Source of the DNA: Actinomycetes bacterium
GTDB lineage: Bacteria > Actinomycetota > Actinomycetes > S36-B12 > UBA10799
Direction: 5' to 3'
Assembly: GCA_029779995.1 (NCBI GenBank)
Contig: JAKOZM010000205.1
Location: 1 to 10,903, forward strand
Length of the DNA: 10,903 nucleotides
The position numbers and the translations under genes were made by a program. Below the pieces are notes generated by a model. That model saw only the letters and a list, made by a program, of their open reading frames with translations. It did not search any database and had not been told where the DNA came from. Below are positions 1 through 10,844 of this stretch, one piece after another. Each line of letters starts with the position of its first letter. Within the stretch, counting starts at the first letter, position 1.

Positions 1-2010
1 ACGGAGCGCGGCTGCGCCGAGTTGGGTGCGCCATTCCTCGACCGACGGTGGCGTGGTGAGTTCGCCGATTGCGTCGATGATCTCGTGCATGGTGCCGCGC
101 CGGGACAGGACGTTGTTGCCGCCGCGGGCCTTGATCAACTGCCGGGCGCGCTGGACCACGACATCCGTGAGCGGCGCATCGACGAGGCCCGCGTGGCGCC
201 ATCGCAGCTCCACGACGCGATCGTTGGTGATCGCGGACCGGTGCCACAAACGGGTCCGATCCCGCGGGTCATAGAAGAAGGGGATCTTGCTGTCCTCGGC
301 TCGGAACGTCCCGGGTCGCAGCCCGCGTAGCTCGTCGACGACCGGCCCGTCGTACGTCAGGCCCTTGTAGGTGACGCCGGCGTTGCCGATGCTCAACCAG
401 CGGATCGGCAGGAACTGATAGATCAGGTCCGGGTGTTGTGGCACGAGGATCCTGCCGGTCGCCACCGAGAGCATGTCGAAGGCCTCGAGCGGGGAGAACT
501 TGCCGTCCTCGACTCCGGGGATCTTGATGCCGTCGTGCTTGTTGCGGTGATAGTCCAATGCAATGAACCGGTGCAGATGCTGCTCCAGTTCCCGCGCGGT
601 CAGGAGCGGCTCGTCGGCGGTCATGCCCACATGTCGGCCGCGCTCCTGGACGTTGCGGCCCTTGAATCCCGGGATCGCCTGATAGGCCCGCTGCAGGGTG
701 TCGTGCCAGCGCTCGACGTGCGCGTTGTCCGTCGGGTGCCCGACGCGTGAAGTCAGCAGGTCGACGCCCAGGTCACGCAGGACCTCCCGTAGATGGGTGG
801 AGATGAAGATCGCGCCGTTGTCGGCGCGGATCGACTTCGGTGTCACCCCCGGCTTCACGTGGACCCCGTCGAGGGAGCGGTCGGTCTTCAACGCCGGCTT
901 GTGAGCCACCAGTGGGTGCGGTGAGAAGTCCAACGACGCCGGTATGCCGCACCAGCGGAAGTCATCGATGGTGGTCCCGTTCACCACCATCGAGAACGGG
1001 CGCATCACGTCATACAACGCCATCGCGACATCGATCGCGGTCGCCGACCGAGGGACCACGCGGCACGCGACGACCACCCTGGTGGGCACTGAGATGAAGG
1101 TGATGATCTCAACCGAGAACGCACGTGAATGGACGTCATCCCAGACCAGGTTGTCCGCACGGGTCACGTCCACCGCGAGGTGACCGGGGTGAATGTCGGG
1201 GTAGCTGTCGAAACCGCGCCGCTTGCGCATCTTGACGCCCTTGTGGCCACGCGCCGTGGAGCCCAGTGCGGCGTAGCGTTGCGACAGATACTGCTGCGCC
1301 AGGCGTTGGGGGAGCTGGAGATCCGTGATCCCGTCCTGCTTCAGCCGCACGTGGATCCGGCGCTCGATCTCGATCAGGTTGACCTTCGACACCGTCCCAT
1401 CGAAGGGAGCCAACTCCTCGTCGACGATGCGAATGAATCGCGCATCCAGCACCTCCCAGCCCTGTTTGCCCTTCGTCTTACGTCCATCAACCAACCCACG
1501 AAGACCGTGTCGACGCCATGCCTTGATCCAGTTCCACAACGTGGTCGCAGATGTGTTGGTGTCCTTCAGCTCACCGGACATCACCCGCCACGCGAGCACC
1601 CGGTCGCCCGCGTTCTCCTGCGAGAGTTGGCGTGCCATCGCCTCGACCCTCTTGGTCAAGGGCAAACCAAAGCCGTCTCCGTACGGGTAGTGCGGTTCGC
1701 CTTCACGGGCAAGTTCGGGGCAGCCGTCGGCATACGAGGTGAGGATTACGAGCACGACTTCCAGTCGAACGAGCGCTTGGTTTCGGGCGCTTTGGGCAAG
1801 GCTGCTCCACCAGGGCTCGAGCGCGGTGTGAGTCACCTGCTCGCCGCCACCCGACTTCTGCACGACCAGCCGATCCCAGCGAATGTGCTCAACGTCGCCC
1901 AGCGCTCCCTTCACGGCCGGGCCGTGCCGGTCGATCGCCATAACGACAGCCGGTCCCGTAGGCATCAGGATCCGCGAGCCCAGTGAGAGCTCAACGCCGG
2001 CAATGGTCAC
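1..2010 (-). CDS. tnsB: TnsB-like DDE transposase (rve integrase core, Mu C-terminal domain), 3' end cut by window
   Basis: Translating the minus strand from a GTG at 2010-2008 gives 670 codons with no stop to the window edge. Residues around 153-175 look like a DNA-binding helix-turn-helix (TSATTLWNWIKAWRRHGL). The RNase H-fold integrase core carries D281 (in AVDVTRADN), D397 (in IRADNGAIF) and E433 (in DNAHVERWHDT), so the last two are separated by 35 residues, the classic DDE spacing. Near the C-terminus, ITYKGLTYDG-like sequence (GNAGVTYKGLTYDG) matches the beta-barrel that follows the catalytic core in Mu/TnsB transposases. TnsB proteins usually have about 650-720 residues, so only a short tail is missing. 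The protein should bind transposon ends and do the 3' strand cutting and joining with the TnsA partner encoded just upstream. The GTG overlaps the tnsA stop as GTGA, which suggests translational coupling and decides the start. No frameshift is seen, so the gene appears intact. The family assignment is firm; activity is inferred. Confidence 0.93.
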   Translation of the reverse strand, partial: MTIAGVELSLGSRILMPTGPAVVMAIDRHGPAVKGALGDVEHIRWDRLVVQKSGGGEQVTHTALEPWWSSLAQSARNQALVRLEVVLVILTSYADGCPELAREGEPHYPYGDGFGLPLTKRVEAMARQLSQENAGDRVLAWRVMSGELKDTNTSATTLWNWIKAWRRHGLRGLVDGRKTKGKQGWEVLDARFIRIVDEELAPFDGTVSKVNLIEIERRIHVRLKQDGITDLQLPQRLAQQYLSQRYAALGSTARGHKGVKMRKRRGFDSYPDIHPGHLAVDVTRADNLVWDDVHSRAFSVEIITFISVPTRVVVACRVVPRSATAIDVAMALYDVMRPFSMVVNGTTIDDFRWCGIPASLDFSPHPLVAHKPALKTDRSLDGVHVKPGVTPKSIRADNGAIFISTHLREVLRDLGVDLLTSRVGHPTDNAHVERWHDTLQRAYQAIPGFKGRNVQERGRHVGMTADEPLLTARELEQHLHRFIALDYHRNKHDGIKIPGVEDGKFSPLEAFDMLSVATGRILVPQHPDLIYQFLPIRWLSIGNAGVTYKGLTYDGPVVDELRGLRPGTFRAEDSKIPFFYDPRDRTRLWHRSAITNDRVVELRWRHAGLVDAPLTDVVVQRARQLIKARGGNNVLSRRGTMHEIIDAIGELTTPPSVEEWRTQLGAAALR

Positions 2011-2777
2011 CGCGCGGCCGCCGACGCCGTCAGACAAACCCGAGTCTCGCGACCCAATCGCTCATCAAGGTCCACCGTGAGGTCACCGCTGCGGATCCCA
2101 TGCCAGACCGCCGAGAGAAGGTGCCCTTCGCCCTCGTCCAGGTCAATCACTTGACCTATGGTCCAAAGAGTTCCCAGATTCTCAACGAGCATCTTGAGGG
2201 CTGTCCGGTGCCACGGCATCGTGCGCCGGTAGCCATCCAGCCACATCAGGTTGACCCGCCGGGTGGCACTCATGCCCGAGAAGAGCTCGTAGCGCCAGCC
2301 AAAAATGGCGCACGCCTCGCGAGTCAGCTCAGCGTGGGACTGGAACTTCTCGTCCTGCCGTTCGACCGGGCGAACGTCCCACACAGTGACGACACCAGCG
2401 ACATCGATGCTCAAGAGATCTGGGTAATGGAAATCAAGCCTCCCGGCCTTTGCGATTTGGAACAGAACCCGCGCAGGCTGCGGAACCAACCACACAATGC
2501 TGGGTCGCTGATCAAGGTCGCGGACGAGGTCATGTTCGAGCCCAGACTCAAGGCGCAGATGCTGGCCAACGGTGATTGAGAACGCCCACACAGGTATATG
2601 AGATTGATGGCTTCCACTTCGGATCCCACGCGCCTGCCGGATTCTCGCGAGGTCGGGCGGCGCTGGCCCGACCCAGGGCGTAGTCCCCGCACCAAAGTTG
2701 AAGTGCCATCGCGGCCCGCTCGGCGAGGTGGCACAAGAGCGCCCATGGGCAGGCAAACTCGCAATAGAGTGCTGCAT
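2007..2777 (-). CDS. tnsA: TnsA-like heteromeric transposase endonuclease subunit
   Basis: This gene encodes a 256-aa protein if it starts at the ATG at 2777-2775. An in-frame GTG at 2873 would give 288 aa. I prefer the ATG because GAAGG lies 7 bases before it and because the extra 32 residues are low in recognisable structure and overlap a long hairpin. In the 256-aa numbering the TnsA-type restriction-endonuclease fold shows E77 (in LRLESGLEHD), D120 (in FHYPDLLSID) and then D134-V-R136 (in VWDVRP). Tn7 TnsA uses Glu, Asp and a Gln-x-Lys. Here the last pair is Asp-x-Arg, a variant I recall in actinobacterial relatives. TnsA cleaves the 5' strands at the element ends, complementing TnsB and allowing cut-and-paste. 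The stop overlaps the tnsB start, and the two genes are clearly one operon transcribed leftwards. The family call rests on these motifs plus linkage to tnsB. Confidence 0.85.
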   Translation of the reverse strand: MQHSIASLPAHGRSCATSPSGPRWHFNFGAGTTPWVGPAPPDLARIRQARGIRSGSHQSHIPVWAFSITVGQHLRLESGLEHDLVRDLDQRPSIVWLVPQPARVLFQIAKAGRLDFHYPDLLSIDVAGVVTVWDVRPVERQDEKFQSHAELTREACAIFGWRYELFSGMSATRRVNLMWLDGYRRTMPWHRTALKMLVENLGTLWTIGQVIDLDEGEGHLLSAVWHGIRSGDLTVDLDERLGRETRVCLTASAAAR

Positions 2778-2784
2778 GACGGCA

Positions 2785-2789
2785 CCTTC
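2785..2789 (-). promoter_or_regulatory. Ribosome binding site choosing the tnsA ATG start
   Basis: On the minus strand GAAGG is followed by a 7-base spacer and then the ATG at 2777. The upstream GTG at 2873 has no comparable site. This favours the shorter protein and leaves the hairpin at 2808-2866 in the untranslated leader. Confidence 0.6.
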
Positions 2790-2807
2790 GTTCTTCGCGG
2801 ACTCATC

Positions 2808-2866
2808 GGGACCGTCACTGGGGCACTGTTCGTCGCAACCGAACGGTGCCCCTCTCTCGTGGTCCC
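2808..2866 (-). repeat. Long imperfect inverted repeat in the tnsA leader
   Basis: GGGGCACTGTTCG at 2820-2832 and CGAACGGTGCCCC at 2840-2852 are complementary at 12 of 13 positions, with a 7-base loop. The one mismatch can form a G-U pair in plus-strand RNA. An outer 6-bp arm, GGGACC (2808-2813) with GGTCCC (2861-2866), extends the structure. There is no following T-run, so it is not a typical intrinsic terminator. With tnsA starting at 2777, the inner hairpin ends 43 bases before the start codon. That position suits an mRNA leader structure or a protein operator limiting transposase expression. The structure is visible; the role is inferred. Confidence 0.6.
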
Positions 2867-2893
2867 TCAGCACAGGCTAGGACCGCTTCCCGG

Positions 2894-2920
2894 CTAATAC
2901 CGCCATCCGTTGAGAACCAA
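2894..2920 (-). promoter_or_regulatory. Weak candidate promoter for tnsAB
   Basis: On the minus strand TTGGTT (2920-2915) is followed after 15 bases by TATTAG (2899-2894). The hexamers partly match TTGACA and TATAAT, but the spacing is short. It is the best sigma-70-like candidate upstream of tnsA. A start site just downstream would place the hairpin at 2808-2866 in the leader. Actinobacterial promoters are hard to call by eye, so this is tentative. Confidence 0.25.
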
Positions 2921-2931
2921 ACGGCATTCGC

Positions 2932-2957
2932 TTATTGCGTCCGCGCTTCTATCCACA
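2932..2957 (-). mobile_element. Possible transposon terminus next to tnsA (TGTGG end)
   Basis: Read on the minus strand from 2957, the sequence begins TGTGG and reaches GCGGACGCAATAAG shortly after. Tn7 ends also begin TGTGG, followed by GCGGACAATAAAG as I remember them. In Tn7 tnsA reads inward from the nearby right end, so a terminus is expected in this spacer. The flanking GGGCG (2958-2962) would be one copy of a 5-bp target duplication. The other end lies outside the window, so this cannot be confirmed. If correct, the rightward operon lies outside, next to the element, rather than inside it. Confidence 0.22.
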
Positions 2958-3021
2958 GGGCGCCCGGAGAGGCCCCGCTACAGCGATATCAGACCGCCGC
3001 TGACCTGCGGGGACGCAATAA
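2932..3021. repeat. 11-bp inverted repeat pair flanking the centre of the divergent region
   Basis: TTATTGCGTCC at 2932-2942 is the exact reverse complement of GGACGCAATAA at 3011-3021. The right copy is part of a near-palindrome, CGCAAT-A-ATTGCG, at 3014-3026. Two well-conserved AT-containing sites 68 bases apart in a GC-rich spacer suggest paired operators, or transposase-binding sites near an element end. I cannot choose between these from sequence alone. Confidence 0.5.
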
Positions 3022-3056
3022 TTGCGCCACCAGCGGTCTCGGTTCAAAACGCCAGC

Positions 3057-3063
3057 GAAGAGG
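3057..3063 (+). promoter_or_regulatory. Ribosome binding site choosing the zinc-knuckle gene start
   Basis: GAAGAGG precedes the ATG at 3073 with a 9-base spacer. An in-frame TTG at 3022 would add 17 residues but lies inside the palindrome at 3014-3026 and has no such site. Confidence 0.6.
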
Positions 3064-3072
3064 TTCACGGCC

Positions 3073-3678
3073 ATGACGAATTTTGGGATGAGCAACGGCG
3101 AGTTCAATGCGATGCTGGTTCAGCTCGACGAACTGCCTGGGCGCTGCGTGAACCCCATGTGCCTTCGACAAGTCACCTACCGAACGACAACGCGTGGTCG
3201 ACAATCGCTCTTCTGCTCCACTCGTTGCCGCAAGGACACGTGGCGAATGAAGATCAAGCTCGCCAGATGGCTCCAACAGGTTGAGGAGAGTGCAGACCTC
3301 ATCGATCGGCCAGCGTCCATGGCATCACTCAATGCCGCGGCCGCCCGCCTTCGATGGCTGCTGGTGCGCTATCCGTTGGCTGAGGACTCCGGGGCGAAAT
3401 CTTCAACCGACGACGAGTACATGCCCCTCGCCGTAGCCATGGCACGGCTCGGTGGGGGTTTCACCCCCGAGATCCTTGACGAAGCATTGAGGTACGACGC
3501 TCGGATGCGCGTTCGTAGGCTGAGCCGCCGGACCAAGGTCCAGCCAGTGAGCCCGACCGACGTTGAGCTAGCGGACCAACGCAGGTATGCCGTCCGCTGG
3601 CAAGAACTAGCTCGGCGCCTCTCCTCGCGCGAGGAGGCCCCCAACGCATCCGAGCCCACGCCTGTGTCGGCGCAGTAG
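3073..3678 (+). CDS. Small zinc-knuckle protein of unknown function
   Basis: I do not recognise a named family for this 201-aa protein. Four cysteines form C25-x4-C30-x17-C48-x3-C52 (RCVNPMC, then LFCSTRCRKD). This is an FCS-like treble-clef or zinc-ribbon arrangement typical of small nucleic-acid- or protein-binding modules. A basic helix (WRMKIKLARW) follows directly. The middle is helical and alanine-rich. Residues around 143-185 are again very basic (RMRVRRLSRRTK), and the tail after about 187 is likely disordered. No signal peptide or membrane segment is seen. It is the first gene of the rightward operon, and its stop is 14 bases before the helicase start. That position suggests an accessory DNA-binding subunit or a regulator of the operon. 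Both roles are inferred; only the zinc site is seen. Confidence 0.75.
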   Translation: MTNFGMSNGEFNAMLVQLDELPGRCVNPMCLRQVTYRTTTRGRQSLFCSTRCRKDTWRMKIKLARWLQQVEESADLIDRPASMASLNAAAARLRWLLVRYPLAEDSGAKSSTDDEYMPLAVAMARLGGGFTPEILDEALRYDARMRVRRLSRRTKVQPVSPTDVELADQRRYAVRWQELARRLSSREEAPNASEPTPVSAQ

Positions 3679-3692
3679 GGCAGGATCAACTC

Positions 3693-6600
3693 GTGCCAAC
3701 GATCTTCGACAACCTTGCAATCGACCGTCAACTGGGCGGGGCTCTGAGGGAGCACTTTGCGAATTCCTACAGTCGAGTCGACGTGGCGACGGGGTATCTG
3801 GACTTGCGGGGGTGGGCTCATCTTGGCGAGGTCATCGAGCAGAAGACCTTCGCTGAAGGGGACGAGCCTGTCGCCCGAGTTCTCGTGGGCATGGTGGCCC
3901 CATCGGACTCGCAGGCGATCCTCAACTCACTTCAGAGTGAGCTGGCGGAACCCGATGTGGGTCCTGCGATCCATGACAATGCCAAAGCGATTGAGCAGAA
4001 GGAGCGACTGGTGCGTCACCTACGCACCCAGCTGATGCGCGGTCTACCGACGAAGAGCGGTCAGACCACTCTGCAACTGATGAAGCGTCAGCTGGAATCG
4101 GGGCGTGTCCAGATCAAGGTGTTCACGCGTCGCCCACTGCACGGGAAGACGTACATCCTTCGAGGTGGGGGCGGACCTGTGCCCTTGTGGTCGTACCTCG
4201 GGTCATCCAACTTCACGGGCGCCGGGCTGTTCAACAATCTGGAACTCAATATCGACATCGCCGACCAAGACCCGAACCAGAAACTTGCCGCCTGGTTCGA
4301 GGACCGTTGGAACGACAAGTACTCGTTGACGATCACCAAGGAGATCATCGAACTCATCGAGGAGTCGTGGTCGGGCGAGGAACAAGCGACCCCGTTCGAG
4401 GTCTACCTCAAGGTCTGCCACGCCCTTTCACAAGACGCCCGCGACGGCCTGGGGTACATCCTCCCGAAATCCATGCAAGACCTGCTGCTCGACTACCAAG
4501 TCACGGCCGTTCGCACCCTGGCCCGCCGCATCGTCCGCCGCGGCGGCACCATGCTCGGCGACGTCGTCGGCCTCGGCAAGACCCTCACGGCCATCGCTAC
4601 CGCCCTCATGCTCCAAGCGGCCGAGGACTACTCCACCTTGGTCCTCTGCCCGAAGAACCTCGAGCAGATGTGGAAGGAGCACCTTGAGGCATACGGCGTC
4701 GAGGGTGCACGCGTCGTGCCCTACTCGATGGCCGACAAACTGTTGCCGGACCTGAAGCTCTTCAAGCTCGTAATCTGCGATGAGTCCCACAACTTGCGCA
4801 ATGACTCGACGAAGGCACACGAGGCCATCAGGGAATACGTACGACGGAACTCCAGCAAGGTTCTGCTGCTCACGGCCACGCCATACAACCTGGCCTTCGC
4901 CGACGTGGCGAACCAGCTCGCCCTCTACATCGACGACGACGATGACCTCGGGATTGTCCCCTCAGCCGCCATGGCGAAAGACCCGAACCTGGTCGACAGG
5001 GTCGACGGCAAGACGAACACACTGGTCGCCTTCAAACGATCCGAGGAAGCCGACGACTGGCGGCGCCTCATGTCAGATCATCTCGTTCGTCGCACCCGGA
5101 CCTTCATCAAGAAGTCGGCGCGCAAAAAGACCGTCACCATGCCGGACGGCACGACGGGGCAGCGGGAGTACTTGCAGTTCGCCGATGGCAGGGAGTTCTT
5201 CTTCCCCACCCGGATCCCACACCCACTGACGCACAAGTTCGGAGAGAACGACCCGGCCTCACTCATGGAGGATGACGACACGCTCAATGCCATCGCGAGG
5301 CTGACTCTGCCCAGGTACCGACTGTCCGACTACGAAGACCCCAGAACCGCCAAGACGCCGCAGGACAAGCAGTACCTGGACGACATCCGGTCCGGCCGTG
5401 GCAACGTGAGCGGCTTCGTCCGCGTCGGGCTCTTCAAGCGGCTCTCTTCCTCAGGCCACTCCTTCATTTTGTCTCTCCAGCGGCAGCGAGCCCGCAACGA
5501 GCTCTTCATCTACGCCCTCGACGAGAAGCTGCAGATCCCGTTGGGCACCTTTACGGACCGTCAGATCTTGGTCAGCGATGAGGACCTCGAGAACGACGAG
5601 CCAGTCGGCGGGTCCCTGGCGAGCCGATATGAGGAACTTCGCCAAAACGCGCCGGCCAAGAGCAAATGGCTCAACTCCACCGTCTTCAAGACGACACTGC
5701 GCCACGACCTCGTCAAGGACAACGAACTCATCACGGCCATGCTGAACCGGTTCGGCAGCTGGGACTCCACCCGCGACACGAAGGTCAACGCGCTGGTCGA
5801 CCTGCTCCGAGGCGAGCACGAGGGCAAGAAGGTCCTCGTCTTCAGCGAGTACAAAGACACCGCCGACTACGTCGCCGAGGCCCTTGAAACCGCCGGAATC
5901 GACAATGTGGGCCTGGCTACCGGCGACTCCACAGACCCTTCCGACGCCGCTCGTCGCTTCTCGCCGCGCTCCAACCGGCTCCCCGGCCAGAGCGTCGAGG
6001 AGGTGAAGGAACCCGACAACCCGATCGACGTCCTGGTCGCCACGGACGTGCTCTCGGAGGGCCAGAACCTCCAAGACAGTCACGTCATCGTCAACTACGA
6101 CCTCCCGTGGGCGATCATCCGCCTCATCCAGCGCGCCGGCCGCGTCGACCGTGTCGGACAAGAATCCGACACGGTCCACGTATACCTGATCACTCACGAC
6201 AAGCTCGAACAGCAGATCCGCCTGCGACAGCGCATCCGCGCACGCCTCAGCGCAGCAGCCGAGGCATTTGGGTCCGACGAACAGTTCTTCGGGACCGACG
6301 ACGAAGTCAAACTGCTCAACGACTTCTACGACGGCCGACTATCAGACAGCGATGACGATGGTGAGGGCGAAGCGGACGCGGTCAGCGAGGCATGGCTCGC
6401 GTGGAGCAACGCGCAGGACAGCCACCCGGCCGTGACCAAGCGGGTCCTGGCCCTGCCAGACCTCATCCACTCAACCCGGGGCAGATACGCCCGCGAGGCC
6501 ACGGGCGGCGTGACCTGCTTCGTTCGCACCGAGTCTGGCGTCGACGCCTTCGCAATCAGCGAGTCGGCGAGCGGCACTGAACGACTCCTCACACCAGCCG

Positions 6601-6992
6601 AGGCTCTACGCATCTTCGAGGCCGAGCCCACCACTCCGACCGCACCGCTACGTGACGATCACTTCGAGCGGGAAGCCGAGTTGGTCCGCGGCCCATTGAC
6701 CATCGAGGCTCGAGCAGCCGGCAATCTCCGCGGAGTCCGCAAGCGGATCTGGGAACGCTTCGGTGGCACGTTCTACGCAGAGCAGGCGGAGGAGGCGCTC
6801 AACGCGCTTCACGAGCGGCCCCTAACAACCCATGCAACCAACCAACTATCTATCGCCCTGCGCAACAAGTACGCCGACCAGGACGTCCTCGACCTGCTCG
6901 ACCGCCTCTACCGGGAGGAACGCCTCGTCATCGGCTCCAGCGAGTCCGATGAGCTTCGGATCGTCTGTTCGATTGGAGTCGCTGACACATGA
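3693..6992 (+). CDS. PLD-family nuclease fused to SNF2-type helicase
   Basis: This is a 1099-aa cytosolic protein. The GTG start has AGGA 7 bases upstream. Residues about 1-230 form a phospholipase-D-like module: ATGYLDLRGW (32-41), H150-G-K152, GSSNFTGAG (170-178) and ELNI around E184. The Asp of a full HxKx4D motif is absent (Arg157). The H-K-N-E set (N173 and E184, 11 residues apart) recalls the single-domain BfiI/Nuc type, which acts as a dimer. The superfamily 2 motor follows: Walker A GDVVGLGKT (289-297, K296), DESH (363-366), TATP (394-397), VLVFSEYKDTADYV (714-727), ATDVLSEGQNLQ (783-794) and QRAGRVDRVGQ (813-823). There is an acidic linker at 885-895 and a C-terminal region I do not recognise. 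The likely role is ATP-driven translocation on foreign DNA coupled to cutting. Its TGA overlaps the methylase ATG (ATGA), so the two are probably made together. Confidence 0.9.
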   Translation: MPTIFDNLAIDRQLGGALREHFANSYSRVDVATGYLDLRGWAHLGEVIEQKTFAEGDEPVARVLVGMVAPSDSQAILNSLQSELAEPDVGPAIHDNAKAIEQKERLVRHLRTQLMRGLPTKSGQTTLQLMKRQLESGRVQIKVFTRRPLHGKTYILRGGGGPVPLWSYLGSSNFTGAGLFNNLELNIDIADQDPNQKLAAWFEDRWNDKYSLTITKEIIELIEESWSGEEQATPFEVYLKVCHALSQDARDGLGYILPKSMQDLLLDYQVTAVRTLARRIVRRGGTMLGDVVGLGKTLTAIATALMLQAAEDYSTLVLCPKNLEQMWKEHLEAYGVEGARVVPYSMADKLLPDLKLFKLVICDESHNLRNDSTKAHEAIREYVRRNSSKVLLLTATPYNLAFADVANQLALYIDDDDDLGIVPSAAMAKDPNLVDRVDGKTNTLVAFKRSEEADDWRRLMSDHLVRRTRTFIKKSARKKTVTMPDGTTGQREYLQFADGREFFFPTRIPHPLTHKFGENDPASLMEDDDTLNAIARLTLPRYRLSDYEDPRTAKTPQDKQYLDDIRSGRGNVSGFVRVGLFKRLSSSGHSFILSLQRQRARNELFIYALDEKLQIPLGTFTDRQILVSDEDLENDEPVGGSLASRYEELRQNAPAKSKWLNSTVFKTTLRHDLVKDNELITAMLNRFGSWDSTRDTKVNALVDLLRGEHEGKKVLVFSEYKDTADYVAEALETAGIDNVGLATGDSTDPSDAARRFSPRSNRLPGQSVEEVKEPDNPIDVLVATDVLSEGQNLQDSHVIVNYDLPWAIIRLIQRAGRVDRVGQESDTVHVYLITHDKLEQQIRLRQRIRARLSAAAEAFGSDEQFFGTDDEVKLLNDFYDGRLSDSDDDGEGEADAVSEAWLAWSNAQDSHPAVTKRVLALPDLIHSTRGRYAREATGGVTCFVRTESGVDAFAISESASGTERLLTPAEALRIFEAEPTTPTAPLRDDHFEREAELVRGPLTIEARAAGNLRGVRKRIWERFGGTFYAEQAEEALNALHERPLTTHATNQLSIALRNKYADQDVLDLLDRLYREERLVIGSSESDELRIVCSIGVADT

Positions 6993-9802
6993 TTCAAGAC
7001 CTGCTGCCCAAGGTTGATCGAGGAGACTTCCAGGAGGTCTTCATCGAGGACCTCAACTGGCTCGCCCCAGACGTGAAGCAGTCCGTCACAGCGACCGGCG
7101 ATGACGGCCGCAAGGTCAGTGCCCGGAACATTGCCTCCTACAAGGGGTTGCGTGTCTGGCTCTGCGATGAACGCCCAGGTTCTGTCCTTGAGGCCGAGCT
7201 CGACCGCCTCATCGCCAAGACCTCGACTGACCGGCTCGTCATCTTTGACGATGACAAGGAGCAGGTCTGGCGGTGGCCGGTTCGTCGGGCCAAGGACGGC
7301 TCCGTCACCTCACGCCTGACCAGCCACCGACACAAGAAGGGCGACGCTGACCCGAAGTTCGCCGCGCGGCTCGACATCATCCGTATGCCGTTCGACGTCG
7401 TGCTGGATGCCAACGCGGTGCTGGGCAAAGTCCGTGAGGCCTTCGACACCGAGGCCCAGAACGAGTCAAAGCGCGCCTCGAAGCTCATGGCCACCATGTA
7501 TGCCGCGGTCGAGAAGGCATACCCCACGAAGGTCGATCCCAAGGTCCGGGACCACGAGATCTCGGTGACGCTTGCCCGCATCCTCTTTCTCATGTTCGGC
7601 GACGACACCGAGATGTGGGAAACGGACGCCTTCCGAAACGTTATCCAGCACGAAGTCTTGCCCGACGGCTCGAACCTTGCCCGGGTGCTGAACGACCTCT
7701 TCGCCTTCCTCGACACCGCGCACCCGCAGCAGATTCCGACCGGCTTCGGTGGCTTCAAGTACGTCAACGGCGGCATCTTCGAAGAACCGATCGAGCTCCC
7801 CCCGCTCGGCAAGGACTTCCGCACGGCGATCCTCGACGCCTGCGCCGTCGACTGGTCAGGGATCAGCCCCGCCATCTTCGGCTCCATGTTCCAGTCCGTC
7901 CGTGACGCCGAGACCCGTCGCGCCCTCGGCGAGCACTACACCTCTGAGGAGAACATCCTCAAGACACTCAACCCACTCTTCCTCGACGAGCTGCGCGAAG
8001 AGTTCACCGCGGCTCTTGCCCGAGATACCACGCAAAAGAAGGTCAACTCGCTCAACAAGCTGTGGGAGCGACTCGGTGACACCCGATTCATGGATCCAGC
8101 CTGCGGCTGCGGCAACTTCATCATCGTGGCCTATCGCGAGCTCCGTGCGATCGAGCTCCAGGTCATGGAGGCCCTGCATAGCCTGAACCAAGTGGCCGGT
8201 CAGGAAACGTTGGGCGGGGACCTCGTGCGGCAGATCCGGGTAACCCTCGACCACTTCTACGGCATAGAGATCGACGAATGGCCAGCCCGAATCGCCGAGA
8301 CAGCGATGTTCATGATCGACCGGCAGTGCGACCTCAAGCTTCGCGAGAGTTTTGGCTATGCCCCCGAGCGCCTCCCGATCCAGCGTGAGGCGACGGTGGC
8401 CGTTTCCAATGCTCTTCGCGTCAACTGGGCGGACATACTCCCGCCCAGTCCCGGTGTCGTCGTCGCGGGAAACCCGCCCTTCTTGGGCAAGACCGAACGC
8501 ACCGCCGAACAGACAGAGGACATGAAGTGGGCTTGGGGAGCTGATTACTCGGGTGAGGCCGATTTCGTCACCTCCTGGTTTGCCAAGGCAGTGGACTACT
8601 TCAACGACGTGGACGGACGTTGGGCCTTCGTTTCGACGAACTCGGTTACTCAAGGCGTCGTCGTCGCACCCGTGTTCGGACAAATAGCATCCCGTGGGTG
8701 GCATATCCGGTTCGCTCACAGAACCTTTGAGTGGACTTCAGACGCCACGGGAACCGCTGCCGTCCACTGCGTAATCTTCGGCATGGACCGCAGGGCAGCG
8801 GGCCCCCGGCGGCTGTTCAACTACGCCTCTGTGAAGTCGCAACCCATCGAGTTCCAGCCGTCAATAATCAACGCATACCTCGTAGACGCAGCCGAGATCG
8901 TGGTGCGGGACCGACGGACCGCTCTCGCGCCGGAGATGACAACCAACATTCGATTCGGCTCGATGCCTGCCGATGGCGGCGGTTTGCTGGTGAACGCAAC
9001 AGAGGCGGCACACGTACGGTCCGTGGACCCTATTGCGCGCCGGTACCTTCGGAGATTCGTTGGCGCCAAGGAACTGCTCAACAACGCGGAGCGATGGTGC
9101 ATTTGGTTACCGGACGAACAACCCGAATCCATCGCCAAGTCGCCATTTCTCTCCCATCGAATCGAGATGGTCCGCGACTTCCGCACTGTGAAAGCGAAGG
9201 ATGCTGGCGTGCGGGCAGCGTCTGGCACCCCGCACCGATTCAACCGGGTCCAGCAGCCACCCGGCCCGTACCTTTGTATTCCTCGTCACGTCCCCGAGTC
9301 GTACACGCACTTCCCGGCTGCCCACTTCGGACCTGACGTGATCTCGGGCGATGCCAACTTCGTCCTAGATGATCCAACGGGGATCTTCTTCGCCATTGTG
9401 TCCTCAGGGATGTTCATGGTCTGGCAGAAGATGGTTGGCGGGCGCATCAAGAACGATCCCCGCTTCGCCAGCACTGTGACATGGAATACCTTCCCTCTTC
9501 CTCCACTGACACCTCCGGCGCGGCAAGCCATCGTTCGTGCTGGTATGTCAGTGCGCGAGGCTCGTGCAAGCACGCCGGATCTCACGCTAGCTCAGCTCTA
9601 CGAGCCAGGATCCATGACGAGTCGTCTCCAGGCCTCCCACGAACATCTCGATGAGATCGTCGAGTCCTTGTTCGGCCTCAATCCTCGGTCATCGACTGAG
9701 ATCGAACGTCAGACCGCGCTCTTCTCCCGCTACGTGGAGATGGTGACAGGACCCCTATCACTGGCGGTCACCCAGGGGCGCAGTCGTGCAAGAGCCAAGT
9801 AG
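6989..9802 (+). CDS. MmeI-like class I SAM-dependent adenine DNA methyltransferase, nuclease motif not seen
   Basis: This protein has 937 residues. GGAG lies 10 bases before the ATG, which overlaps the helicase stop. Residues about 185-345 match the helical spacer of MmeI-like enzymes (SVTLARILFLMFGDDTEMW, YVNGGIFEE, DWSGISPAIFGSMFQSV, GEHYTSEENIL). The SAM-binding motif is DPACGCGN (369-376). The catalytic motif NPPF (495-498) is the N6-adenine type and is followed by LGKTERTAEQTEDM. Residues about 600-840 should hold the target-recognition domain, ending in WNTFPLPPL (832-840). MmeI itself has an N-terminal D-ExK nuclease. Here the N-terminal 180 residues (FIEDLNWLAPDV, LVIFDDDKEQVWRWPV) show no such triad to my eye. 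The likely role is site-specific methylation that protects host DNA, or a modification/recognition subunit for the helicase-nuclease. Target sequence cannot be read from the gene. Confidence 0.9.
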   Translation: MIQDLLPKVDRGDFQEVFIEDLNWLAPDVKQSVTATGDDGRKVSARNIASYKGLRVWLCDERPGSVLEAELDRLIAKTSTDRLVIFDDDKEQVWRWPVRRAKDGSVTSRLTSHRHKKGDADPKFAARLDIIRMPFDVVLDANAVLGKVREAFDTEAQNESKRASKLMATMYAAVEKAYPTKVDPKVRDHEISVTLARILFLMFGDDTEMWETDAFRNVIQHEVLPDGSNLARVLNDLFAFLDTAHPQQIPTGFGGFKYVNGGIFEEPIELPPLGKDFRTAILDACAVDWSGISPAIFGSMFQSVRDAETRRALGEHYTSEENILKTLNPLFLDELREEFTAALARDTTQKKVNSLNKLWERLGDTRFMDPACGCGNFIIVAYRELRAIELQVMEALHSLNQVAGQETLGGDLVRQIRVTLDHFYGIEIDEWPARIAETAMFMIDRQCDLKLRESFGYAPERLPIQREATVAVSNALRVNWADILPPSPGVVVAGNPPFLGKTERTAEQTEDMKWAWGADYSGEADFVTSWFAKAVDYFNDVDGRWAFVSTNSVTQGVVVAPVFGQIASRGWHIRFAHRTFEWTSDATGTAAVHCVIFGMDRRAAGPRRLFNYASVKSQPIEFQPSIINAYLVDAAEIVVRDRRTALAPEMTTNIRFGSMPADGGGLLVNATEAAHVRSVDPIARRYLRRFVGAKELLNNAERWCIWLPDEQPESIAKSPFLSHRIEMVRDFRTVKAKDAGVRAASGTPHRFNRVQQPPGPYLCIPRHVPESYTHFPAAHFGPDVISGDANFVLDDPTGIFFAIVSSGMFMVWQKMVGGRIKNDPRFASTVTWNTFPLPPLTPPARQAIVRAGMSVREARASTPDLTLAQLYEPGSMTSRLQASHEHLDEIVESLFGLNPRSSTEIERQTALFSRYVEMVTGPLSLAVTQGRSRARAK

Positions 9803-10565
9803 CGGTCTTCCAGTTCGCGTGGTCGAACTGGCGACCACGATGTTCGCGCGGGAGACAGGCTTCAGCGGTCCAGACCTTTACCGGCTCTTCGCGGAGTACA
9901 CGGATGGGCTCGGCGAGTATGCCGGCTGGGGCGGGGGAGCCGAGTCGCGCTGGCAGACCTTCCAACGCGGTCTCAAGTTGCTCACGCGAGAACATCAGGT
10001 GCGCTTCCTGCTCGAACTGTGCGAGTACGACGGCTACATCAAACACGGCCGGCCATCAGACGAGCAGATCGCCAAGCTACGCGCGCTGCTGCTGGCCGAG
10101 AGCGCGCCGGGCTCGGATGCATCTGGTGAACGACTCGCGACCTTGGAGGACTGGAAGTCCGTACAGACCTCCTGGCGTCAGGCCCTCGACAAGATCCACT
10201 CAGACCCTGAGGGAGCCATCACGGCCACGCGCACTCTGTTGGAGAGCACCTGTAAGCACATCTGCGACGAACGCGGGGTGGCCTACGAGAACTCATGGGA
10301 CCTTAGCCGCCTCTACAAGGCAGCGTCGGGAGCCATGAACCTGGCTCCCGATCAGCACACAGAGCAGGTGTTCAAGCAGATCCTGTCCGGAGTGTCCACG
10401 GTCGTCATAGGTCTAGGTGCGATGCGCAACAGCCTCAGCGACGCGCATGGTCGAGGGAAGAACGCTGTCCGCCCGGCACCTCGACACGCCAAGCTTGCCG
10501 TGAATGCAGGCTTTGCCATCGCAGGCTTCCTCATCGATACGCACATTGAGCGTCCCGCGTCGTAG
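9786..10565 (+). CDS. Abortive-infection (Abi_C/HEPN-like) protein
   Basis: This gene encodes 259 aa. It starts at a GTG inside the methylase, 17 bases before the end of that gene, with AGGGG 7 bases upstream. Residues about 140-252 resemble the abortive-infection C-terminal domain (Abi_C, AbiJ-like): ATRTLLESTCKHICDERG (147-164), WDLSRLYKAA, then MRNSLSDAHGRG. R214 and H221, with six residues between, fit the HEPN R-x4-6-H ribonuclease motif. The N-terminal about 110 residues are helical (FSGPDLYRLFAEYTD, WQTFQRGLKLLTREHQVRFLLELCE) and may be an adaptor domain like those of AbiJ proteins, though that is tentative. There is no signal peptide or clear membrane segment. By analogy it could cleave RNA and stop growth when infection is sensed. 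Its overlap with the methylase gene argues that it belongs to the same system. The domain call is moderately firm; the activity and trigger are inferred. Confidence 0.8.
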   Translation: MQEPSSGLPVRVVELATTMFARETGFSGPDLYRLFAEYTDGLGEYAGWGGGAESRWQTFQRGLKLLTREHQVRFLLELCEYDGYIKHGRPSDEQIAKLRALLLAESAPGSDASGERLATLEDWKSVQTSWRQALDKIHSDPEGAITATRTLLESTCKHICDERGVAYENSWDLSRLYKAASGAMNLAPDQHTEQVFKQILSGVSTVVIGLGAMRNSLSDAHGRGKNAVRPAPRHAKLAVNAGFAIAGFLIDTHIERPAS

Positions 10566-10638
10566 ACGGGCAGGGGAATAGCTAGTCGACCCAAGACTGG
10601 CACCCATAACGCGACCTGGCCAACACGCCCGAGCTGCA

Positions 10639-10661
10639 TAACGTCACGTTAATACTGTATT
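10639..10661. repeat. Two abutting palindromes in an AT-rich patch
   Basis: TAACGT-C-ACGTTA (10639-10651) and AATAC-T-GTATT (10651-10661) are each perfect around a single central base and share one A. They lie in an AT-rich island about 75 bases past the last gene of the operon. They could be an operator pair for the next gene or a recombination/attachment-type site. The structure is seen; the role is unknown. Confidence 0.5.
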
Positions 10662-10844
10662 GAAGCGCCGTTACTCCAATCTTGGCTGCATCTCGACACG
10701 AGCCCCGGGTGAACAGCGTCGGGCCGAAACACAACCGTGAATTGGGGGACGTTCGCCAGGCGGCTCGACCGGCCCGGGGGACGTGCCCTGACCTGCGAGA
10801 ACGCGCGGAGTGGTTCCGGGGTGTGGTGCTGGCCGACCACGACG

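Follow-up and report, generated by a model that had tools for sequence, protein, structure and literature searches.

The window analysed here, a 10,903-nucleotide stretch of DNA from an Actinomycetes bacterium (contig JAKOZM010000205.1), raises the question of which of its four co-directional open reading frames (ORFs) form a functional unit and what that unit does. A preliminary description, made from the letters alone, had joined a small zinc-site protein (ORF 1), a phospholipase D (PLD) nuclease fused to a superfamily 2 (SF2) motor (ORF 2, hereafter HEL), an adenine methyltransferase (ORF 3, hereafter MT), and an Abi_C-like HEPN protein (ORF 4) in one composite defence system. The comparison with other genomes and loci (designated by G- and L-numbers) identifies instead a real two-gene system, composed of HEL and MT and found in several phyla, whose boundaries had been drawn wrongly. 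With a probability of roughly 0.65, HEL and MT would function as a two-component, ATP-dependent restriction-modification system, in which the N-terminal domain of MT (hereafter N-domain) calls in the PLD motor, MT having no nuclease fused to it.

The conserved two-gene unit

The four ORFs are separated by +14, -4, and -17 bases, the same values on recomputation as those reported previously, and the domain assignments proposed for ORFs 2 to 4 hold. Specifically, Pfam detects PLDc_2, SNF2-rel_dom, and Helicase_C in HEL, together with a ResIII match that represents a general motor domain; the NPPF motif of the methylase is at MT residue 495, accompanied by DPACGCGN at 369; and ORF 4 contains an Abi_C domain with the R-x6-H motif RNSLSDAH at 214. 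The catalytic motifs of both core proteins are intact: HEL displays HGKTYIL at 150, DESH at 363, and QRAGRVDRVGQ at 813, with H150, K152, N173, G293-T297, and D363/E364/S365 unchanged throughout an alignment of 40 sequences that contains the window's own; N495/P496/P497 of MT are invariant in 63.

HEL lies directly upstream of MT in all eight of the nine named genome loci with MT that have upstream DNA (L006-L013; L005 begins at MT), and a class survey found HEL adjoining an N-domain-bearing MT in six of six genomes versus none of the 11 loci with other MmeI relatives. The pair is also present in plasmid and G-genome loci; it occurs on actinobacterial chromosomes and plasmids alike, and beside integrase genes. 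The plasmids carrying it belong to Gordonia, Pseudarthrobacter, Rhodococcus, Paenarthrobacter, and Ornithinimicrobium, the last two with pair genes broken by an insertion sequence element or frameshifts. Among plasmids, each of the 11 top-ranking MT records (alignments starting at residue 1-5) is found among the HEL records listed, and none of the next 19 MT records is among the 22 records with HEL coverage over 80%; a Microbacterium plasmid encodes HEL followed by a 524-amino acid (aa) protein that has the N-domain and lacks a methylase domain in Pfam. Within the phylum the pair is uncommon: among 396 phylum genomes, a HEL homologue at E < 1e-100 occurs only in G001 (the genome that matches the window from 1 to 10698), G075, and G264, and some helicase part of HEL is matched at E <= 1e-3 in 294. 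That a PLD-helicase and a methylase recur side by side across many hosts, their catalytic motifs unchanged, supports the restriction-modification-like character attributed to the two genes in the preliminary description.

ORF 1 and ORF 4 have no tblastn match (E <= 1e-3) in the 33 fetched loci that contain the pair or related genes. By the standard set in the preliminary description, namely that homologues be neighbours in other genomes, the four-gene unit is thereby refuted, and the two-gene core is not. The conserved unit is the HEL/MT pair; the zinc and Abi_C genes are cargo neighbours and not part of the machine. A four-gene composite in which Abi_C serves as an RNase fallback triggered upon restriction failure is accordingly quite unlikely: the fallback draws its support only from the 17-base overlap of ORF 4 with the co-directional MT and, although a third gene stands close to some other pairs (AlbA_2 in Gordonia and AAA_21 in Anabaena, for instance), none of these 33 loci contains an Abi_C or zinc-protein homologue, and Abi_C relatives exist without the pair. 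ORF 4 matches 210 plasmid records, and the HEL/MT pair is absent from all three neighbourhoods inspected, one of which adjoins a different methylase/helicase pair. Moreover, an Abi_C relative occurs in two genomes besides G001 (of seven pair-bearing or pair-related ones), on contigs other than that of the pair.

The N-terminal domain of MT as a candidate adaptor

MT contains the Pfam domains MmeI_hel, MmeI_Mtase, MmeI_TRD, and MmeI_C, and thus has the methylase core and the target-recognition domain (TRD) of MmeI, but resembles MmeI only beyond residue 154-187, with the alignment to full-length MmeI beginning at residue 187. MmeI_N is not among the Pfam hits of MT, and the chain lacks a recognisable N-terminal PD-(D/E)xK nuclease, a result that says nothing on nucleases of other fold. 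The absence of this motif was overlooked in the preliminary description; D..ExK is missing in all 18 aligned relatives and visible in eight of ten without HEL. In PADLOC, MT falls under the type IIG restriction enzymes, and the helix/strand order of the predicted N-domain looks nuclease-like by eye, as would be expected if MT were an ordinary lone type IIL enzyme with a diverged nuclease and HEL a separate, co-travelling defence gene; the distribution of D..ExK and the co-occurrence and covariation of MT with HEL make this very unlikely.

A hidden Markov model (HMM) of the N-domain, built from 18 MTs, was run over the 2277 ORFs of all loci (some overlapping). It recovers the MTs with E values from 1e-93 to 8e-45 and, in addition, Eco57I-type methylases adjoining HEL relatives, with E values from 1.5e-24 to 2.8e-11. 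The latter are found in Synechocystis (1.6e-20), Picosynechococcus (1.5e-24), Anabaena (2.2e-14), Pelobacter (2.8e-11), and two IMG/VR contigs (2.4e-21 and 5.2e-18), and were typed by Pfam in all but Picosynechococcus. The MmeI relatives that lack HEL match no better than marginally (E 0.0027 or weaker), at the C-terminal edge of the profile. The N-domain also occurs in Dolichospermum (L056:12352-13209), where HEL is followed by a protein of ~285-286 aa with the domain (5.7e-14) and without Pfam hits, and in a 396-aa protein (L106:13145-14332) that combines a second N-domain copy (3.1e-09) with sigma-70 regions 2 and 4. This sigma-70 fusion shares a gene cluster with a HEL/Eco57I-type methylase pair and is followed by a DprA-like gene, which is also present in L105.

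Covariation was evaluated over 17 pairs, with L012 excluded because of its frameshifted MT. The identity of HEL correlates with that of the N-domain at r 0.970, a value reached by none of 2000 permutations, and with that of the TRD at r 0.233, reached by 78 of 2000; controlling for the methylase core, HEL and the N-domain still show a partial correlation of 0.85, and controlling for the N-domain, HEL and the core one of 0.53. The clearest case is the comparison of the window with Phycicoccus (L006), in which identity is 88% for HEL, 88% for the N-domain, 68% for the core, and 29% for the TRD. The TRD contrast fits a swap of target specificity with the motor and the N-domain kept constant. Taken one step further, and tentatively, the N-domain could be a plug-in adaptor that lets MmeI-type methylases, Eco57I-type methylases, and a sigma-70-region protein (on one IMG/VR contig) summon the same PLD-SNF2 cutter, an idea that falls somewhat short of being favoured; no description of the N-domain as an adaptor was found in the literature searched.

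In keeping with a two-component system, a sister pair, formed by a HEL relative and an Eco57I-type methylase with the N-domain, resides on the Synechocystis plasmid pSYSX, and the PADLOC type IIG model PDLC03628 matches this methylase end to end (2661.8 bits). M.Ssp6803IV is reported as an N6-methyladenine (m6A) enzyme acting on GA-m6A-GGC (GAAGGC) (PMC7296061), and both M.Ssp6803IV and M.Ssp6803V are reported on pSYSX (PMC6604393). M.Ssp6803V is slr6095, in a type I set recognised on the record by gene order and S subunit; apart from the type I enzyme, the pSYSX annotation lists no DNA methylase other than the Eco57I-type one next to HEL.

Several observations weigh against the recruitment of HEL through the N-domain or blur its outline. 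The identity of HEL also correlates with that of the methylase core (r 0.921; none of 2000 permutations reaches it), so that shared ancestry explains part of the covariation. The N-domain is absent from three of the 33 loci bearing the pair or related genes (L057, L102, and L103): L057 contains a distant Thermococcus helicase (26% identity to HEL), and L102 and L103 are two contig ends over which a single HEL relative of G264 is split (43-44 and 40% identity), with no MT match. In an N-domain-first survey, five genomes matched among the 396, of which G001 and G075 have HEL; G271 retains only a C-terminal remnant of HEL, which precedes an Eco57I-type methylase where the contig ends; G384 (L116) and G346 (L117) have weak N-domain relatives with methylase-like matches and no HEL on the DNA examined. 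The MmeI crystal chain is resolved only from about residue 158, and a fold search was thereby unable to compare the N-domain with the MmeI nuclease; a profile comparison of the N-domain with the nuclease domains of the relatives gave a probability of 0.28%. The structure model of HEL is weak (predicted local distance difference test, 69). Lastly, the sister methylase should recognise GAAGGC, i.e., be M.Ssp6803IV, because it is the only other annotated pSYSX methylase, an elimination made from an incomplete gene table. Overall, the link between the N-domain and HEL is strong for clear members and uncertain for distant ones. Upstream of the HEL relative of G264 (L102:6719-12027), a 578-aa ORF lacks the N-domain but has, judged by eye, the sequence DPTVGSG, which resembles motif I of methylases; it is a possible third kind of HEL partner.

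Proposed mechanism and alternatives

In the proposed mechanism, MT would find an asymmetric site through its TRD and methylate one adenine on one strand, as reported for MmeI-family enzymes, which methylate one strand only (PMC3874165). At unmethylated sites, the N-domain of MT would dock and license the PLD-SNF2 protein, which would in turn dimerise via its single-HKD nuclease domains, move along the DNA, and cut it, putatively providing phage defence. By analogy, the motor logic of HEL would be that of SauUSI, a PLD-SF2 fusion reported to dimerise via its nuclease domains and to translocate and shred DNA (PMC7913695).

A different use of the same two proteins would be a BREX-like block, in which MT marks or senses sites and HEL stops phage replication as a motor, with the PLD domain cutting rarely or never. 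This is unlikely, since the invariance of H150, K152, and N173 argues for an active nuclease, and the DUF499 ATPase is absent from all six pair-bearing genomes (the control search was positive in one of 14; BrxC was not searched by its own model). Carriage of the pair by a mobile element could also speak for a methylation-only epigenetic pair or for transposon self-marking rather than defence; nonetheless, the nuclease and ATPase motifs are conserved, and the pair is also located on plasmids and beside integrase genes, and here shares its element with an Iet-type pair, all of which renders such a role extremely improbable.

If the restriction-modification reading with N-domain recruitment is true, the methylases that PADLOC treats as self-contained type IIG enzymes would be half-enzymes working through a separate motor, which changes how restriction activity, post-replication host protection, and phage evasion should be tested. 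The pair would also be a natural example of a nuclease and a DNA-reading methylase uncoupled and re-paired via one small domain and, should the domain be a plug-in adaptor, sites could change by a swap of the reader while the cutter stays unchanged. The sister pair on pSYSX of Synechocystis 6803, a laboratory strain, makes the idea directly testable.

Genomic context on a Tn7-like element

The operon is cargo of a Tn7-like element, whose TnsB- and TnsA-like genes (at 1-2873, minus strand) and end at 10698 had escaped the preliminary description, as had the presence of an Iet-type defence pair on the same transposon (Table 1). The window equals G001 over 1-10698 with one mismatch (1485) and diverges from 10699 onward, and the last 19 bases of the element recur inverted at G001 336855, delimiting an element of ~21 kb in G001 (336855-357846). 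The element contains TnsA, TnsB-like, TniB, and TniQ genes with matching terminal repeats, as expected of a Tn7-like element, TnsB being assigned by weak hits and position; it also contains an IetA/IetS-type ATPase and subtilase pair (G001 336989-340307; L002:6990-10308). No target-site duplication was seen at the element. Its location at two different sites in two assemblies speaks for recent movement; alternatively, the difference may reflect an assembly error at the window edge. Tn7-like elements are reported to carry defence genes, most often restriction-modification modules (PMC8649781), and carriage of the pair is therefore expected.

Table 1. Features of the window, with coordinates and supporting evidence
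Feature	Position	Strand	Evidence
HEL, PLD nuclease fused to SNF2-type SF2 motor, 1099 aa; proposed cutter/translocase	3693..6992	+	Pfam; invariant motifs; adjacent homologues
MT, MmeI-type N6-adenine methyltransferase with its own TRD, 937 aa; proposed specificity and modification subunit	6989..9802	+	
MT N-domain, ~residues 1-153; proposed HEL adaptor at the place of the MmeI nuclease	6989..7447	+	No MmeI match; no D..ExK; common with Eco57I-type methylases; covariation
MT TRD, residues 634-840, fast-changing	8888..9508	+	Pfam MmeI_TRD; 29% identity to Phycicoccus relative
ORF 1, small C4 zinc-site protein, 201 aa; outside conserved core	3073..3678	+	CX4C and CX3C; no plasmid match; no match in 33 loci
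ORF 4, Abi_C/AbiJ-type HEPN protein, 259 aa; cargo neighbour outside conserved core	9786..10565	+	Pfam Abi_C, E 3.2e-21; PADLOC AbiJ
TnsB-like transposase, cut by window edge	1..2037	-	Weak PADLOC TnsB; sub-threshold Pfam rve; TniB and TniQ next in G001
TnsA-like endonuclease	2007..2873	-	NCBIfam NF033179, 111.9 bits vs cut-off 110
Right terminal inverted repeat, end of Tn7-like element	10680..10698	.	G001 identity stops at 10698/10699; inverted copy from G001 336855

Additional features adjoin the element in G001 or lie within it. Beyond the left end, at a distance of 4 bases, the terminal repeat recurs as a second inverted copy (L002 ~6837-6851; G001 336836-336850), as if two elements were in tandem; the gene beside the right end (357849-361805) reads by eye like dnaB, with long intein-like insertions, also by eye; and a 564-aa gene within the element (L002:11002-12696) has no Pfam or PADLOC hit.

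The product of ORF 1 had been called a zinc-knuckle protein. Its two cysteine pairs, CVNPMC (CX4C) and CSTRC (CX3C), are present, but the term is loose, as Pfam/NCBIfam-type searches yield no family match and only sub-threshold YacG hits (E about 0.05). It has zero matches in 72,556 plasmids and, self hit aside, two weak ones among 57 other relatives of G001. A regulatory function is possible. The zinc-protein gene diverges from tnsA, and the region separating the two contains a 15-nucleotide inverted repeat (93%; window 2932-2946/3007-3021), a candidate operator. The PADLOC AbiJ match on ORF 4 spans residues 139-250 only. Elsewhere, the third gene near the pair is variable (L015, L096, and L053), namely Schlafen/AlbA_2 in two loci, ~250 bases downstream of the methylase in L096, and an AAA_21 ATPase in one. 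In two cyanobacterial plasmids (L014:13487-14120 and L054:12473-13106), HEL and the methylase are separated by a small gene plus one for a VapC-type toxin.

Comparison with known systems

No published description of the pair was found in the literature searched. Its lack of a match to DISARM or BREX agrees with the preliminary description, and it does not match Hma either. The MmeI family (type IIL) shares the methylase core and TRD with MT, which differs in having no MmeI_N hit, no PD-(D/E)xK motif, another N-domain, and a PLD-helicase encoded by a gene of its own. Type III systems (Mod and Res) are likewise made of two subunits, a methylase with a TRD and an SF2 motor-nuclease, and the presumed sister system has an asymmetric site as well; the pair appears to differ in its methylase motif I preceding NPPF, its PLD nuclease, and its SNF2-type motor. 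DISARM class 1 resembles the pair in that the models of the DrmD-type SNF2 helicase and of the DrmMI methylase match parts of HEL and MT. The pair differs in having no MZB protein (DrmB/YprA type) nearby: a search for DrmB as PF09369 (MZB) gives seven hits in six of six genomes, each either separated from the pair by more than 200 kb or situated on a different contig.

Among the systems with PLD nucleases, Type-2 BREX-Related (DUF499), related to the earlier name Hma, has an HKD nuclease-Swi2/Snf2 helicase fusion with an N6-methylase nearby (PMC12839542); DUF3780 is found in none of the six pair genomes, but the control is also negative in 14 of 14. CglI and NgoAVII employ a PLD nuclease and an SF2 ATPase in a restriction system and are reported to differ from HEL in that nuclease and ATPase are separate subunits and recognition relies on a B3 domain (PMC7913695). 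The type IV enzyme SauUSI, with its PLD-SF2-coupler-SRA architecture, is similar to HEL in the N-terminal fusion of the PLD nuclease to the SF2 motor (PMC7913695). Unlike SauUSI, HEL has no SRA family among its Pfam hits at E up to 0.1, and recognition would come from MT in trans.
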